This document shows positions 15,831 through 22,816 of a DNA stretch of 64,000 nucleotides, piece by piece. The position numbers were made by a program, and so were the translations under genes. The notes beneath the pieces are model-generated. The model was not told the origin of the DNA. It did no database searches and saw nothing but the letters and a program-made list of their open reading frames with translations. The DNA lies in the NCBI RefSeq assembly GCF_003987435.1, contig NZ_PIQG01000002.1:310001-374000 (forward strand), in the 5' to 3' direction. Source of the stretch: Pseudidiomarina taiwanensis. GTDB lineage: Bacteria > Pseudomonadota > Gammaproteobacteria > Enterobacterales > Alteromonadaceae. How positions within the stretch are numbered: the stretch's first letter is position 1; the number at the start of each line of letters is the position of its first letter.

Positions 15831-16490
15831 ATGCAGGACTTACCCAGCTTATTTGCCAAGGCCAGTCAACTCGCTGGTCGCAGCTTCGCCGAACTTGCCG
15901 CTGAGGTGGGCTTGAAAGTGCCTAAAGACCTGCGCCGCAATAAAGGCTGGGTGGGTCAATTACTGGAACAACAACTCGGTGCCAGTGCCGGCTCACAACA
16001 ATTACAAGACTTCCCGGAATTAGGTGTGGAACTGAAAACGATTCCGATTGACGCAACCGGCAAGCCACTGGAGACCACCTTTGTCTGCACCACGCCACTG
16101 GTCGATATTGAGCAGCTCAGCTGGGAGCAGAGTAATGTCCGCAATAAACTCCAGTGCGTCTTGTGGATCCCGATTGATGGGCGCCGCGAAATTGCCTTGG
16201 CCGAACGGACCGTTGGCACCGCATTTTTATGGCAACCAAGTGCCGCGCAAGAACAGCAACTGCGACAAGATTGGCAAGAGCATATGGACCGCATTGCGCT
16301 TGGCCAAGTGGAACAAATCAGTGCCCATCAAGGCGAAGTGCTGCAACTGCGACCGAAAGCCGCCAACGGTCGAGTTAAGACGCAAGCGATTGGACCCAAT
16401 GGCCAATTGATTGAGACCTTACCACGCGGTTTCTATCTGAAAACCAGTTTTACCCACAGTATCCTCAGAGATGTATTTAATTTGCCGTAA
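15831..16490 (+). CDS. mutH: DNA mismatch repair endonuclease MutH
   Basis: A 219-residue MutH, which nicks the unmethylated strand at hemimethylated GATC sites once activated by MutS/MutL. The catalytic triad matches E. coli D70/E77/K79: Asp60, Glu67 and Lys69 in [16 protein letters not shown]. The C-terminal [12 protein letters not shown] and [12 protein letters not shown] segments are conserved. It is divergent from rppH with 85 bp between the chosen starts, a neighbourhood shared with E. coli. Its presence implies Dam methylation in this organism. Confidence 0.97.
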
Positions 16491-16564: not shown

Positions 16565-16996
16565 ATGGATACGCTCGGTTGGCGAGAATGGGGCGCGCTC
16601 CCCGATTTAGGTATTGAGGCAATTAAAATGAAAGTCGACACAGGGGCGAAAACCTCGTGCCTGCACGCCTTTCAGATTGAACCTTTTGAGCGCGATGGGC
16701 GCGCTTGGGTGAAGATTTGGGTCCACCCTGAGCAAGACAGCTTGCGCGAACATATTTGTGAAGCTGAAGTGCTTGACCAGCGTGAGGTCAGTGATTCAGG
16801 TGGACATCGTGAATTGCGCTATGTGATTCGTAGTCGCTTGCAAATTGGCGGATTTGATCAGCCTATCGAGCTCACCTTAACCAATCGCGATAGTATGAAG
16901 TTCAGAATGCTGCTAGGTCGCCAAGCCATGAACGGCCACTTTATCGTGAACCCGGAAGCATCTTATTTAATGGGCAACAAGGAATCGGCATCATGA
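16565..16996 (+). CDS. rimB: RimB-type retropepsin-like protease (PF05618, 'ATP-dependent zinc protease')
   Basis: A 143-residue protein of the family historically named putative ATP-dependent zinc protease, now regarded as retropepsin-like. The aspartic-protease-like loop DTGAKTS is at residues 25-31, and [14 protein letters not shown] is at the C-terminus. In pseudomonads RimB works with RimK, which glutamylates ribosomal protein S6. Here rimB overlaps rimK by 4 nt (ATGA), which supports the same pairing. The exact peptide substrate is not established from sequence. Confidence 0.85.
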
Positions 16997-17898
16997 GAAT
17001 TGCAATTTTATCCCGTAATCCTCGTCTCTACTCGACTAAACGTCTGGTCGAAGCGGGCGAAGAAAAAGGCCACGAGATGCATGTGCTCGACCCGTTGCGC
17101 TGTTATATGAACATCAATGCCCGCGAATCATCAATTCACCGCAAAGGTGAGACGCTACCGAAGTTTGATGCGGTGATTCCGCGTATTGGCGCCTCGATTA
17201 CCTTCTTCGGCACAGCGGTTTTGCGCCAATTCGAGATGATTGGGACCTATCCCTTAAATGAATCGGTGGCGATTTCACGTAGTCGTGACAAGTTGCGTTC
17301 ACTGCAACTGTTGAGCCGGCGTGGGGTTGGCTTGCCAGTGACGGGTTTTGCCAGTCAGCCACAAGACGTTCCAGACTTACTGGAGATGGTCGGTGGCGCG
17401 CCCTTGGTGATCAAATTACTCGAAGGAACCCAAGGCATTGGTGTGGTGCTTGCGGAAACGCGCCAGGCCGCTGAGAGTGTTATCGAAGCCTTTATGGGGC
17501 TGAAGTCGCCAATTATGGTGCAAGAATATATTAAAGAAGCCGGTGGTGCAGATATTCGCTGCTTGGTGATTGGCGACAAAGTCATCGCCGCCATGAAGCG
17601 CCAAGCGAAAAGCGGAGAGTTCCGCTCAAACTTACACCGCGGCGGTTCGGCAAGCTTGGTGAAGCTCACTGCGGCAGAGCGCGCAACTGCAGTAAAAGCC
17701 GCGAAAATCATGGGCCTCAATGTTGCTGGGGTAGATATTTTGCGCTCGAACCACGGCCCGTTGGTGATGGAAGTCAACTCTTCGCCAGGTCTTGAAGGTA
17801 TCGAAGCTGCGACCGAGAAAGATGTCGCAGGGCAAATCATCAGCTTTATCGAAAAGAACGCGAAAGCGCATAAAACTCGGACAAAAGGAAAAGGTTAA
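16993..17898 (+). CDS. rimK: RimK, ribosomal protein S6 glutamate ligase (ATP-grasp)
   Basis: A 301-residue ATP-grasp ligase. The N-terminus [21 protein letters not shown], the [19 protein letters not shown] motif, [16 protein letters not shown] and the Mg-binding VAGVDILRS...[14 protein letters not shown] segment are all typical of RimK. The enzyme adds glutamates to the C-terminus of ribosomal protein S6 and can make poly-alpha-glutamate. It is second in a tightly packed cluster; the next gene starts immediately after the rimK stop (TAA then GTG). Confidence 0.95.
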
Positions 17899-18933
17899 GT
17901 GGCCAAGCGCTCGTCACCTGCTGCGTTTCAAATTGCTGAAACGCAGGTCCCACCTGGATCGCGGGTCAGTATTAAATTCCCCGCGGCACGCCTTTACACA
18001 GATACTCCGATTGAACTCCATGCGGAAGTTTTTCATGGGGTTAAAAAAGGGCCCGTGCTGTTAGTTTGCGCGGCGATTCATGGCGATGAGCTAAATGGCG
18101 TTGAAATCTGTCGGCGCTTGCTCGGCTTAATCGACCCAACCGAATTAGTCGGTACTGTGATAGTGGTGCCGGTGGTGAATATTTTTGGTTTTATTCAACA
18201 ATCGCGCTATTTACCTGACCGGCGCGACCTTAATCGCTGCTTCCCTGGCTCTGAGCGCGGGGCGCTGGGTAGTCGCTTGGCGTATTTATTCAATGATGAA
18301 ATCGTCAGTAAAGCGAGCCACATCATTGACCTCCACACCGGGGCGATGCACCGCAGTAACCTGCCGCAGATTCGCGTCGATACCAGCCAAGCCGAAGCGC
18401 TGGCGATGGCGGATGCCTTCTCGGCCCCAGTTATTTTGCAGTCAAAGCGCCGTGATGGCTCACTGCGAGCGCTCGCTGGAGATCTCAATATTCCGCTTAT
18501 TGTCTACGAGGCGGGCGAAGCCTTGCGGTTTGACGATGCGGCCATTCACGCAGGTGTGAACGGCGTCACCAATGTCATGAAATTCTTAAAGATGATGAAA
18601 GGACGCAAGCGCCGCGCCAAAGTCACGCCGGTGCTTGCCCCGCGCAGTGTGTGGGTGCGTAATGAATTCGATGGGCTGGTGATTCGAAAGGTCGAACTTG
18701 GCCAAACCATTGCCAAAGGCCAAATCATCGCCGAGATTGTGAACCCCCATCGCGATCAAGCCGAAGCACTGCGCAGTCCCTGCCATGGGATTGTCATTGG
18801 TATTAGTAATATTCCGGTTTCGAACGAAGGGGAAGCGCTATTTAATATTGCTCAGTTTGACCGCAGTGAAGTGGTGGAAGCCGGTGAGAACGTCGATACC
18901 TTTACTGAGGCATACGAGGGGCGGCCATTGTGA
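17899..18933 (+). CDS. AstE/AspA-like zinc hydrolase (succinylglutamate desuccinylase/aspartoacylase family)
   Basis: A 344-residue metallohydrolase of the AstE/AspA family, within the M14 carboxypeptidase superfamily. The zinc ligands His61 and Glu64 are in HGDELNG, with a third in DLHTG (144-148); the LNRCFPG motif (111-117) is also conserved. A C-terminal beta-barrel-like region follows. It uses a GTG start directly after the rimK stop and overlaps rsmC by 4 nt (GTGA). Other arginine succinyltransferase pathway genes are absent, so true AstE activity is unlikely; the context suggests an amide or peptide substrate linked to RimK. Confidence 0.85.
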   Translation: MAKRSSPAAFQIAETQVPPGSRVSIKFPAARLYTDTPIELHAEVFHGVKKGPVLLVCAAIHGDELNGVEICRRLLGLIDPTELVGTVIVVPVVNIFGFIQQSRYLPDRRDLNRCFPGSERGALGSRLAYLFNDEIVSKASHIIDLHTGAMHRSNLPQIRVDTSQAEALAMADAFSAPVILQSKRRDGSLRALAGDLNIPLIVYEAGEALRFDDAAIHAGVNGVTNVMKFLKMMKGRKRRAKVTPVLAPRSVWVRNEFDGLVIRKVELGQTIAKGQIIAEIVNPHRDQAEALRSPCHGIVIGISNIPVSNEGEALFNIAQFDRSEVVEAGENVDTFTEAYEGRPL

Positions 18934-19964
18934 GTGCCCTGCACGCGCCTTCGCAATTACTCCTGCGCCAGCAACAGCTTTTGCCTGAAGGGCCGTTACT
19001 GGTGATCAATGGCCCCGATCCTGAGTTGAGCCAAAGCCTCTCGATTGGCGCAAGCTGGAACTGGCATGCAGGGTATCATCAGGCCTGGCTGCGACAAGCG
19101 GGGCAACACCATTTTGGTGCTGAGCCACCGCTGCTAGCTGCGGATCAGATCAATGCTGCGATTCTTTATCTACCCAAAGAAAAAGCCCTTGCAGACATGG
19201 TGTTTGTGGCGCTTGCGGCAACGCTTAAGTCAGGGACGCCGTTATTTATCGTTGGTGAGAATCGCGGTGGCATTAAAAGTATCCATAAGCGCATGCCTGA
19301 GTTTTTACAGACTGCACAGAAAATTGCAGTCGGCCATCATTGCGTTTTGCTCGCCAGCGCCATTGATGCCGCGCAGCACTTTCAGTTGGATGATTTTATT
19401 CGTTGGTGCGAACTCGACCAGCCCGGGCATGTTGAGCCTTTGCGCCTAGCAAGTTTCCCCGGCGTGTTTGCCTACCCGAGTATCGATGCGGGCAGTGCCA
19501 TGTTACTCGAGCATCTGCCGCAATGGCAGCAAGGCCGGGTGTTAGATTTTGCCTGCGGGCATGGGGTGTTAGGCGCATGGCTACAGCGCAACAGTAGCGC
19601 ACTGACCGTCGACTACCTGGATGTGAGTGCATTGGCCCTGGCTGCGACGACGCGGACGTTAGCCGCGCAACAGCTGACCGGTACGCTCATAGCGCAAGAC
19701 GGTTTAGCTGCCGAGCAAGGCCAGTACAAGTATATTGTCAGCCACCCGCCCTTTCATACCGGACTTGCCACCGACTATAAAATCGGGGCTGAGTTTCTCA
19801 AGCAATCACGGCAACATCTCGAGCGCGGGGGCGAACTTTGGTTGGTTGCGAATCGCTTTTTGCCATGGCCGGAGTTGCTCGAGCAAGTATTCGGGCGCTT
19901 TGAACGGGTTGCACAGGATAATAAGTTTGCCGTGTATCGTGCTATCCATGAGGTCCGCCGGTGA
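18930..19964 (+). CDS. rsmC: RsmC-like 16S rRNA (guanine1207-N2)-methyltransferase
   Basis: A 344-residue protein with the RsmC/RlmG two-domain layout: an N-terminal degenerate methyltransferase domain and a C-terminal SAM-binding domain (VLDFACGHGVLG, then the catalytic region near 271). RsmC methylates G1207 of 16S rRNA. The usual SNPPFH motif reads SHPPFHTG here, an Asn-to-His change at a base-contacting position. The following GGELWLVANRFLPWPELLE segment is a good match to RsmC. GTG start, overlapping the upstream hydrolase stop; its own stop overlaps the kinase start (GTGA). Confidence 0.82.
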   Translation: MSALHAPSQLLLRQQQLLPEGPLLVINGPDPELSQSLSIGASWNWHAGYHQAWLRQAGQHHFGAEPPLLAADQINAAILYLPKEKALADMVFVALAATLKSGTPLFIVGENRGGIKSIHKRMPEFLQTAQKIAVGHHCVLLASAIDAAQHFQLDDFIRWCELDQPGHVEPLRLASFPGVFAYPSIDAGSAMLLEHLPQWQQGRVLDFACGHGVLGAWLQRNSSALTVDYLDVSALALAATTRTLAAQQLTGTLIAQDGLAAEQGQYKYIVSHPPFHTGLATDYKIGAEFLKQSRQHLERGGELWLVANRFLPWPELLEQVFGRFERVAQDNKFAVYRAIHEVRR

Positions 19965-21589
19965 GTTGGGTCAAAAGTATCCGCCGCGCCAGCCTGCTCC
20001 ATAGTGTGCTGGTTGCATGGCTGGTGGCGGTATTGGCGGGAACGATTTATACCGCCTACTACTACCAACAAGTCCGCGACTACCTATTGCAACGCAGTGA
20101 CGAAATGGCGGAATTGATTACCTTAAGTGGACAACGAAATATCGTTCTTACCGCGTCTCGTGATCCGCACACATGGCTTTCGACTCTTTACACCACCTCT
20201 TGGGTTGAACATGTGCATTTGTATCAGCGCACGCAGAGTTCAGCACAATTACGCTTTTTAGGCAGTTACAACAAACAAGGACTTGCCGCGATTCCGGTGC
20301 GCCGCGAGTCCCAACTGGAGCAAATTGGTCCGCAATTACGCGAGGACTATATTGATGTGGCCAAGCAGATTACCAATAACGAGCGAGTGATCGGCTATGT
20401 GTATCTGCGCTCAAGTCGTGCGCCGCTCGACTTAGTGTTATTACGAGGGGTGATCATTACCAGTGTGATTTCTTTGCTGGCGATTCTTCTCAGTTTGCTG
20501 CTGGCACGGCGTCATCGCCGCCAGACCATTGATACCCTGGCGCAACTCACGCAGCAATTACGCGAACTCAGCGAGCATCCGGCAAATGGCAAACGACTGC
20601 ATGATTTTGACTTACGCGAGCTCGATGAGATTGGCTTAGCCATTAACCGTCTACTTGGCCGCTATGAGCAGCGCCAACGCCGCCTCGAGCAACGCAAAAA
20701 TCATGCTGAGCGACGCGCCAATGACTTAACGGAGCAATTGGCGCAGCGCGCTAAAGCACTCAGCGAGGCCAACGCAGAATTCGCTGAAACGCTTGAAAGT
20801 TTGCATCAATACCAACAGCAGTTGGTTGAGGCGAAAAAGATTTCCTCGCTACGGGAGATGGTTGCGAGTATTGCCCACGAGGTCAATACCCCGGTCGGGC
20901 TGGTTATCACCTCGCTCTCCATAATGAACGACCAGCTCGATGGTTTGGTAGAAAAAGTGAGCTCAAAGCAATTAACCCGTGCGCAGCTCGAACAGTTTAT
21001 CCAACAACATCAGGAAAATTTGGCTTTAGTTAAACGAAACATAGATCGGACCGCGGGTCTGATTGCGCGTTTCAGCCAGCTAGCGCTTGACCAATTCGCC
21101 GAGGAACCGCAGTTAATTGAACTGAGTACCTTTTGCGCTGACCTGACAGCAAGCCTACAAACTCGGCTCGAGCCGTGGCCGACGCTTAGCCTTAAGTTGC
21201 AGTGTTCTGACACGGGGGCCTACCTGCTCAAACCGGGTCCGATTAATCAAATTTTGACTCAACTTGTACAAAATTCTATACAGCATGGTTTCGAAGATGG
21301 CCAAGCTGGAATCATCGATATTCAGCTACAGGTGAGTGACGCGACAGCTGACAGCGCTGAGAGGCAATTACAGATCCGTTATCATGATAATGGCCGTGGG
21401 ATTGATAACTCCTTGATCGATCGTATTTTTGACCCGTTTGTCAGTGGTCGCAAAGACGTCGGTGCCAGTGGGCTTGGTTTATACCTTGTTTATAACCTTG
21501 TCCATCAAGTTCTGCACGGGCAAATTAAAGTCAGCAGTGATTCAGATTCTGGAACACGTTTCCATATCACTCTTCCTATCTCTGCGTAG
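19961..21589 (+). CDS. Membrane sensor histidine kinase (HPK4-like)
   Basis: A 542-residue sensor kinase. Transmembrane segments at about 13-33 and 157-182 flank an approximately 120-residue periplasmic sensor region. A HAMP-like stretch and a long charged coiled coil (about 235-295) lead to the H-box MVASIAHEVNTPVG, with His306 as phosphorylation site. The ATPase domain follows (LVQNSIQHGFEDG, DNGRGID, GASGLGLYLVYNLV). There is no receiver or Hpt domain, so it is not ArcB. It overlaps rsmC by 4 nt, so expression is coupled to the rimB cluster. arcA lies 153 bp downstream, but partnership with it is unproven. Confidence 0.88.
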   Translation: MSWVKSIRRASLLHSVLVAWLVAVLAGTIYTAYYYQQVRDYLLQRSDEMAELITLSGQRNIVLTASRDPHTWLSTLYTTSWVEHVHLYQRTQSSAQLRFLGSYNKQGLAAIPVRRESQLEQIGPQLREDYIDVAKQITNNERVIGYVYLRSSRAPLDLVLLRGVIITSVISLLAILLSLLLARRHRRQTIDTLAQLTQQLRELSEHPANGKRLHDFDLRELDEIGLAINRLLGRYEQRQRRLEQRKNHAERRANDLTEQLAQRAKALSEANAEFAETLESLHQYQQQLVEAKKISSLREMVASIAHEVNTPVGLVITSLSIMNDQLDGLVEKVSSKQLTRAQLEQFIQQHQENLALVKRNIDRTAGLIARFSQLALDQFAEEPQLIELSTFCADLTASLQTRLEPWPTLSLKLQCSDTGAYLLKPGPINQILTQLVQNSIQHGFEDGQAGIIDIQLQVSDATADSAERQLQIRYHDNGRGIDNSLIDRIFDPFVSGRKDVGASGLGLYLVYNLVHQVLHGQIKVSSDSDSGTRFHITLPISA

Positions 21590-21742: not shown

Positions 21743-22498
21743 ATGAGCGCAAGACTTTTAATTGTCGAGGATGAAGTCGTTACTCGAAACACCCTGACCC
21801 GATTATTTCAGCAAGAAGGCTATGATGTGTTTGATGCGGCAGATGGCATGCAAATGCAACGCATTATGGCGCGCCAGCAGGTTGATTTAGTCATTATGGA
21901 CGTTAACCTGCCGGGTAAAAGTGGTATCCAGCTCGCTGAAAAATTACGCGAGCAAGAGAACATTGGCCTGATCTTTTTAACGGGTCGTGATGCTGAGGAA
22001 GATCGTTTGTTGGCGCTCGAACTTGGGGCTGATGATTATCTTATTAAGCCGTACAATCCGAAAGAATTGATCATTCGGGTCCGTAACTTATACCGCCGTA
22101 TCGAAGCTCTGAAGCAGCAAGAGCGTGAAATTGGCCATGAAAGCGTGGTCTACGAGTTCAACAACTGGCGCCTCGAGAGTGACAGTCGCTGCTTGTTTGC
22201 ACCTGATGGCACGGTTTATCGTCTGCCGAAAAGTGAATATCGCGCGATGGAATTATTTGTCACCAATCCGGGTAAGATTCTTGACCGCGAGACCTTGGTG
22301 AAGAAAATGCTAAACCGTGAATTGCGACCTAACGACCGCACGGTTGACGTCGCGATTCGTCGGATCCGCCGACATTTTGAGAATCAAGGCGATGCACCGA
22401 ATCTGATCACCACGATTCACGGCGAAGGGTATCGCTTTATCGGGCAAGTTAACGTGCGTTATCTCGAAGCGCCGTCATTGAACGCCCCGAGCAACTAA
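21743..22498 (+). CDS. arcA: Aerobic respiration response regulator ArcA
   Basis: A 251-residue OmpR-type response regulator. The receiver has acidic residues at 9-10, the phosphoacceptor Asp53 in VIMDVNLPGKSG, and Lys in DDYLIKPYNP. The winged-helix domain ends NRELRPNDRTVDVAIRRIRRHFE and TTIHGEGYRFIG. The match to E. coli ArcA is close along the whole length, including VEDEVVTRNTL at the start. ArcA represses respiratory and TCA genes under low oxygen. Its 3' end overlaps the facing Hpt gene by 24 bp. Confidence 0.93.
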   Translation: MSARLLIVEDEVVTRNTLTRLFQQEGYDVFDAADGMQMQRIMARQQVDLVIMDVNLPGKSGIQLAEKLREQENIGLIFLTGRDAEEDRLLALELGADDYLIKPYNPKELIIRVRNLYRRIEALKQQEREIGHESVVYEFNNWRLESDSRCLFAPDGTVYRLPKSEYRAMELFVTNPGKILDRETLVKKMLNRELRPNDRTVDVAIRRIRRHFENQGDAPNLITTIHGEGYRFIGQVNVRYLEAPSLNAPSN

Positions 22499-22816
22499 CC
22501 AACGTTTTAATTCGGCTTGATGTTGTGGCTGCTGTTTGGCCCACGCATCAAGCCGTTTTTCTAGCTCTTCCCACTGCCAAGGTTGGCGCTCGATCAATTC
22601 CATTTCACTGGCCAATTCATGCAAGCCGACCGAACGACAGGCTCCTTTTAACTTATGTGCTTGGCGGCGGGTTTCTGTTTCATCGCGCTGAGCAACTAAA
22701 TGCTGCATCAGTTCAAGATAACCTCCGATGTTATCTGCGAACGTCTCATACATTTCGCCGACGCCCTCAGTACCGAGCAAATCGTAATATTGCTGAAGTA
22801 GTTTTTCATCGATCAT
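22475..22816 (-). CDS. Free-standing Hpt (histidine phosphotransfer) protein, HptA-like
   Basis: A 113-residue single-domain Hpt protein. The phosphorylatable His54 lies in RRQAHKLKGACRSVG, the classic HxLKG motif of four-helix Hpt modules such as the ArcB C-terminus. A strong AAAGGAG site precedes the ATG. It faces arcA and overlaps its 3' end. In Shewanella a separate protein, HptA, relays phosphate to ArcA because full ArcB is missing. The adjacency here suggests the same role. The kinase or receiver that loads it is not in the window unless another hybrid kinase exists elsewhere. Confidence 0.85.
   Translation of the reverse strand: MIDEKLLQQYYDLLGTEGVGEMYETFADNIGGYLELMQHLVAQRDETETRRQAHKLKGACRSVGLHELASEMELIERQPWQWEELEKRLDAWAKQQPQHQAELKRWLVARGVQ

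Follow-up and report, generated by a model that had tools for sequence, protein, structure and literature searches.

The best-described counterpart of the genes considered here is the RimABK system of Pseudomonas, in which rimB and rimK are adjacent and glutamate is reversibly added to and removed from ribosomal protein S6 (excerpts of PMC11957791 and PMC7343187). RimK attaches glutamates to S6 by alpha linkage and also makes free poly-alpha-L-glutamate. RimB is described (excerpts of PMC11957791) as an aspartic endopeptidase that takes glutamates off polyglutamated S6, boosts polymer synthesis by RimK, and requires six contiguous glutamates, or five if the first one is encoded. Since RimB trims S6 tails, reversibility of S6 glutamylation is already known and is not new here; few bacterial switches that act through protein tails are known, and reversible glutamylation of the ribosome is among them. 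A way of regaining the unglutamated ground state is stated as needed (PMC7343187, in part), and the Rim literature, as far as these excerpts go, asks for an enzyme that restores unmodified S6. Here we analyze a rimB-rimK locus of Pseudidiomarina taiwanensis in which rimK is followed by a gene for a putative zinc hydrolase. The locus lies in a 64-kb stretch of DNA (64,000 nucleotides, hereafter the window; all positions refer to this whole stretch) from a genome of 2.2 Mb, whose nearest named relatives among the matches are Aliidiomarina and Idiomarina.

The window resembles the Pseudomonas system in its adjacent rimB and rimK, but it adds the zinc hydrolase, which the excerpts do not mention for Pseudomonas, and it has no rimA between mutH and rimB. 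At eight of the Idiomarina and Aliidiomarina loci (L065-L073), an EAL-only gene that possibly encodes a counterpart of RimA is transcribed divergently from rimB; it lies less than 1 kb away at six of them and 1.7-1.8 kb away at the other two. The window has no such gene in its mutH-rimB interval. A literature search, mainly of open-access papers, found none naming the hydrolase together with RimK, and the words 'desuccinylase' and 'aspartoacylase' were absent from the Rim papers that were text-searched. The survey of amidoligase neighbourhoods by Iyer et al. 2009 reportedly linked ATP-grasp ligases with several peptidases; the association of the hydrolase with RimK may therefore already be noted there.

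We propose that the hydrolase is the third core component of the RimB-RimK system, a zinc exopeptidase for short alpha-glutamyl stubs and fragments, and that the RsmC-like protein and the sensor kinase encoded downstream are not part of it. Judging from linkage, fold and the length limit of RimB, we give this reading a probability of roughly 0.5. RimK would add alpha-linked glutamates to S6 and make the free polymer, and RimB would cut tails only where five or six contiguous glutamates are present. The hydrolase, as a putative zinc-dependent exopeptidase, would then remove single glutamates from the protein stub and from the oligo-glutamates left by RimB, so that the substrate would return to its unmodified state and glutamate would be recovered. 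The limit of RimB, together with the stated need for a ground-state route, leaves a gap that the hydrolase fits. It is very probably a Rim component, and its place directly behind the rim genes in many bacteria makes it a good candidate for a missing enzyme of tail removal or glutamate recycling. Widely conserved, tied to rimK and annotated in general terms, the gene offers a concrete, testable candidate for the activity that the Rim literature calls for.

Linkage of the hydrolase to rimK and rimB

We examined gene order in 148 genomes of the window's taxonomic order (the order set). Some genomes are counted under two handles, the genome sets used here overlap slightly, and Fisher comparisons, which treat related genomes as independent, are indicative only. 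Hydrolases of at least 44% identity, a cut-off set by eye at a gap in the list, were termed class A and comprise 61 copies in 58 genomes, one copy (G064:C19) being broken and partial. Fifty-five of these 61 copies lie directly downstream of rimK on the same strand, with gaps of -8 to 131 bp; one of the six copies not beside rimK is a partial copy adjoining rimB. Around the 55 rimK-linked copies the order is rimB-rimK-hydrolase in 13 and rimK-hydrolase-rimB in 30, while rimB is opposed in one and not nearby in 11. Of 99 rimK copies of at least 57% identity, 55 have rimB next to them. All 58 genomes carrying class A have rimK, and none of 28 remoter hydrolase homologues in the order set stands beside rimK.

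Likewise, rimK lies within 3.5 kb of the hydrolase in 54 of the 80 named-genome loci, which are the best 80 of at least 573 relatives among GTDB genomes. The 26 unlinked loci come mostly from Halomonadaceae, Vibrionaceae and Shewanella, and 25 of these 26 genomes have rimK elsewhere. Across the phylum the hydrolase was found in 94 of 398 genomes. Other classes contributed 50 copies in 49 genomes, 30 of them at most about 3 kb from rimK, the arrangement being forward, divergent or convergent; at three of these 30 loci rimB or the rimB-rimK pair is reversed. All 20 genomes of these classes without a close link have rimK elsewhere, and rimK is present in 49 of 49. In 23 further genomes of the window's own class, compared by place, rimK is beside the hydrolase in 12, elsewhere in 10 and not found in one (G533). 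Co-conservation with rimK, which the preliminary description of this DNA had set in advance as a test of its proposal, is thus borne out by adjacency and by the gene content of the carriers alike. The trio rimB-rimK-hydrolase is real and broad, occurring across many, largely marine, bacteria, and the distinct hydrolase subfamily is genetically tied to rimK, being retained by genomes with rimK even where the two genes are no longer linked.

Acaryochloris, Phaeobacter and Salinivibrio carry the trio on plasmids as well, and a plasmid of Vibrio nigripulchritudo that is typed as conjugative has rimK-hydrolase-rimB followed by an MscS gene. The plasmid rimB-rimK genes of Persicobacter, Aureibacter and Thioclava (L182-L184) are hybrids or close pairs. 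A trio shared with haloarchaea was considered and rejected, since tblastn found no rimK within 4 kb of the two plasmid homologues examined there (32% and 31% identity). An annotated carboxylate--amine ligase lies about 2.5 kb from one haloarchaeal hydrolase homologue (L175:7629-8867), on the other strand. Matches to the hydrolase on phages were distant only (24-29% identity, six records).

Family, fold and conserved residues of the hydrolase

The hydrolase belongs to the AstE/AspA superfamily: it matches PF24827 well above the cut-off (Table 1) and keeps H61, E64 and H146. It passes no NCBIfam equivalog. The best is DoeB (TIGR02994), at 82.3 bits against a cut-off of 402.7, and it falls far short of the AstE (TIGR03242, 19.7 against 305.65 bits) and aspartoacylase (NF002601, 20.2 against 180 bits) equivalogs. 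A Pfam search found no PF04952 region at the hydrolase locus. We rejected the idea that the gene is this genome's AstE, as a separate AstE-like copy with PF04952 is present on contig C1. In a FastTree phylogeny of 75 sequences, with the root placed on class C by choice, class A forms a single branch (support 0.942) next to class B. Unlinked copies are scattered within the class A branch, suggesting repeated unlinking.

Class B, the sister clade (34-38% identity to the hydrolase), has neither rimK nor rimB within some 3 kb at nine loci (L346-L354, e.g. L346:2857-4428), and signal-peptide-like N-termini were seen in the four loci read (L346, L351, L353 and L354). A putatively exported class B would parallel the exported RloA, as against the cytosolic RimB.

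A confident AlphaFold2 model of the hydrolase (pLDDT 91.3, pTM 0.91) was compared with solved structures by Foldseek, which ranked DoeB first, followed by structural-genomics relatives and CphZ, with weaker matches to AstE, aspartoacylase and M14 carboxypeptidases. DoeB/EutE, an N-acetyl-diaminobutyrate deacetylase, matches at TMq 0.73-0.79 with 20-24% identity, but the hydrolase lies far under the DoeB equivalog cut-off. CphZ, a cyanophycin dipeptide hydrolase with an AstE/AspA-type fold (TMq 0.70-0.71), acts on dipeptides released from a polymer made ATP-dependently (excerpts of PMC10206079); it differs from the hydrolase in that its substrate is beta-Asp-Arg/Lys and it is linked to cyanophycin genes rather than rimK, and the two share 14% identity. 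AstE and aspartoacylase have the same superfamily and zinc-site pattern but a weaker fold match (TMq about 0.47-0.53). Tubulin deglutamylases, which are M14 enzymes, would work alike if our proposal holds, and other M14 carboxypeptidases match at TMq of about 0.45, but the deglutamylases did not appear among the matches listed and we do not claim the hydrolase as one of them. The preliminary description had placed the protein in the AstE/AspA fold of the M14 superfamily; of this, a distant resemblance to M14-type carboxypeptidases and to the AstE/AspA-type CphZ stands, with DoeB as the nearest fold.

Seven residues (H61, E64, H146, R103, N112, R113 and E204) are near-invariant across classes A, B and C, whereas R152, N154, Q157, R159 and R190 are common to classes A and B, and E207 and R210 are typical of class A. 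We take H61, E64 and H146 to be the zinc ligands, assigning active-site roles from what is generally held about AstE and M14 enzymes. The conserved arginines of class A may, on the model, bind an acidic chain.

Substrate and physiological setting

We examined the C-terminus of S6 in the order set, where it could be read from 39 of 58 genomes with rimK and the hydrolase, 22 of 28 with rimK only and 27 of 53 without rimK, one rimK-like genome being set apart and one further S6 being left unread. A terminal glutamate was present in 33 of 39, 20 of 22 and 16 of 27, respectively, so that genomes with rimK have a glutamate end more often (53 of 61 read) than genomes lacking rimK. The S6 tail was rejected as a marker of the hydrolase because 33/39 versus 20/22 does not separate the groups. 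Genus g9 (L155, L158, L160, L215-L217, L232, L240 and L241) offers a natural experiment on RimK and its acceptor: the three rimK-bearing genomes have S6 ending in AAAE, and in the six read that lack rimK the last residue is K, Q or A. RimK and a glutamate end on S6 go together generally, but not in the window's genus. The C-terminal glutamate acceptor of a RimBK system is absent from the window genome, where S6 ends in ...TEAA; S6 ends in EAA in four Idiomarina and in AE in two Aliidiomarina. Some S6 proteins are described as having no terminal glutamate (PMC11957791, in part).

Genes for MscS and CorA recur near the trio. Of 89 linked loci, 26 have an MscS gene and 14 a CorA gene within 1 kb; this set includes L136, whose single rimK-like match is remote. 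Among 45 unlinked loci, one has MscS and one CorA. All six MscS and all three CorA examples tested were confirmed by Pfam. Over 55 named loci, the density of MscS falls from 19 per 108 kb in the first 1 kb to 1 per 264 kb at 1-3.5 kb and 2 per 394 kb beyond. Furthermore, at 20 rimK-hydrolase-rimB order loci MscS was found within 3.5 kb in eight and CorA in five, as against one and one at 20 rimK loci without hydrolase, although the sets are not alike in taxonomic make-up and part of the MscS matches are weak. In the excerpted text of PMC10308900, rimK rises 52-fold at 1% NaCl in Photobacterium damselae, and in that of PMC12239564 RloA proteins, exported relatives of RimB, are needed in hypo-osmotic medium. 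Together with these reports, the MscS and CorA neighbours suggest a link to salt change, a physiological setting in which the effect may be sought.

On this evidence, free poly-alpha-L-glutamate might be the main substrate of the trio and serve as an osmotic or ionic buffer, with S6 a side target or none: RimK would tie up free glutamate as polymer at low salt, and RimB and the hydrolase would return it. The enrichment of MscS, the recurring CorA genes, both salt-related reports and the S6 of the window's genus, which has no terminal glutamate, all agree with such a role. The 19 MscS matches, however, fall to Marinobacter (10), Pseudoalteromonas (5), Aliidiomarina (2), Halovibrio (1) and a Rhodospirillales metagenome-assembled genome (1), indicating few independent events, and the MscS and CorA profiles were trained on these same neighbours. 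The window's own trio is flanked by neither gene, the excerpts of the P. damselae paper (PMC10308900) are silent on the hydrolase, and RloA and RimB showed no genetic interaction (PMC12239564, in part). We consider a mainly osmotic role unlikely. A broader version, which we hold to be rather unlikely, would make the RimK-RimB-hydrolase cassette a mobile glutamate-polymer module for salt or osmotic change. RimK would store glutamate as poly-alpha-glutamate or protein tails and RimB and the hydrolase would release it, often beside mechanosensitive and Mg-type channels, and an exported counterpart may exist in RloA and the exported class B hydrolases.

Mammalian RIMKL enzymes act as metabolite ligases, and RimK could likewise make a small glutamyl conjugate that the hydrolase cleaves, or the hydrolase could remove an N-acyl group, proteins being untouched in either case. 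DoeB, AstE and aspartoacylase all act on N-acyl amino acids, and DoeB is the closest fold. Yet class A branches separately from the remoter homologues and has conserved Arg and Glu residues that are missing from DoeB at the aligned places (PDB alignment), RimK here is an S6-ligase equivalog, and a trio that includes RimB points to a polymer as substrate; a metabolite role seems quite improbable. Several observations nonetheless weigh against the hydrolase as a Rim exopeptidase. Its closest solved relatives by sequence and fold, DoeB at 22-24% identity, are N-deacetylases. Class A is missing from 28 of 86 order genomes with rimK of at least 57% identity, and none was found within 3.5 kb at five plasmid loci, which carry rimK (Leisingera and Allocoleopsis) or rimB-rimK (Persicobacter, Aureibacter and Thioclava). 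Even within the window's genus, rsmC directly follows rimB-rimK at one locus (L045), which lacks the hydrolase at that place. The S6 of that genus has a C-terminal Ala (Ala-Ala or Ala) in 23 of 23 further genomes, or 24 of 24 with the window, and may therefore not be the substrate here. Linkage, moreover, cannot separate a protein substrate from free polymer. In the preliminary description RimK would write glutamate tails that RimB or the hydrolase, or both, trim; trimming of S6 tails by RimB was already known (PMC11957791, in part), and the part concerning S6 is weakened by the Ala-ended proteins of the genus.

The locus and its rsmC and kinase neighbours

Table 1. Genes of the rim locus and its flanks, in window positions.
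Gene	Position	Strand	Assignment and matches
mutH (upstream context)	15831..16490	+	NCBIfam MutH equivalog
rimB, retropepsin-like aspartic endopeptidase	16565..16996	+	PF05618, 127.6 bits
rimK, S6/poly-alpha-L-glutamate ligase	16993..17898	+	PF08443 + PF18030; NF007764
zinc hydrolase, AstE/AspA superfamily, Rim-associated 'class A'	17899..18933	+	GTG start; PF24827, 147.6 bits (cut-off 25)
rsmC-like 16S rRNA methyltransferase, neighbour	18930..19964	+	GTG start; MTS + MTS_N
sensor histidine kinase, neighbour	19961..21589	+	GTG start; HATPase_c
arcA response regulator (context)	21743..22498	+	NCBIfam ArcA equivalog, 339.6 bits (cut-off 334)

The genes follow one another in the order mutH, rimB, rimK, hydrolase, rsmC-like, histidine kinase, arcA. 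Direct inspection of the bases confirmed the five genes from rimB to the kinase and their junctions as first described: rimB and rimK overlap by ATGA (16993-16996), the TAA stop of rimK (17896-17898) abuts the GTG of the hydrolase, and GTGA overlaps join the hydrolase to rsmC (18930-18933) and rsmC to the kinase (19961-19964). RimK passes the NCBIfam S6--L-glutamate ligase equivalog NF007764 (494 bits, cut-off 331). RimB (133.5 against 200 bits) and RsmC (240.2 against 295 bits, the match spanning 1-340 of the protein) score below their equivalog cut-offs, so that RimB is a divergent member and RsmC probably one as well. No second copy of the rsmC-like gene was found in the genome at E<=1e-30. 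The kinase matches HATPase_c above the cut-off and HisKA below it (20.2 against 26.9). A promoter and terminator scan of the locus found sites no more frequent than in shuffled sequence.

The preliminary description had taken all five genes for one signal-controlled ribosome-modification module. The tight overlaps in the window speak for this, as does gene order in the window's genus, where the kinase follows rsmC in 24 of 24 loci (window included) and the hydrolase immediately precedes rsmC in 22 of 24; at one locus (L057) neither the hydrolase nor rimB-rimK lies within 1.5 kb of rsmC. Outside the genus the order is not conserved. Nine Idiomarina and Aliidiomarina loci have both the trio and an rsmC-kinase-arcA block, but in eight of them the two are separate, with 1.9-3.6 kb between hydrolase and rsmC and a fapA-like gene in all eight intervals (FapA confirmed by Pfam in one locus); in the ninth, rsmC lies 21 bp downstream of the hydrolase. 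The kinase stands directly upstream of arcA in all nine (gap 116-235 bp). No rsmC was found within the flank covered at the remaining 71 of the best 80 loci, nor within 1.5 kb at any of 29 other order loci. Gene order thus largely refutes the five-gene module, which we rejected as highly improbable. Since the trio and the rsmC-kinase-arcA block are separate in relatives, the tight run is best read as loss of intervening genes: rsmC and the kinase would have met the rim genes by gene loss between two neighbouring units, and look like accidental neighbours. The kinase is linked to arcA rather than to rim. Close packing alone is no proof of joint function, and the comparative tests support joint function for three of the five genes only.

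After arcA (window 21743-22816), a small Hpt protein encoded on the opposite strand resembles the phosphotransfer domain of ArcB (51 bits). The kinase upstream of arcA has no receiver domain match and, with the Hpt gene, possibly forms a split Arc system.

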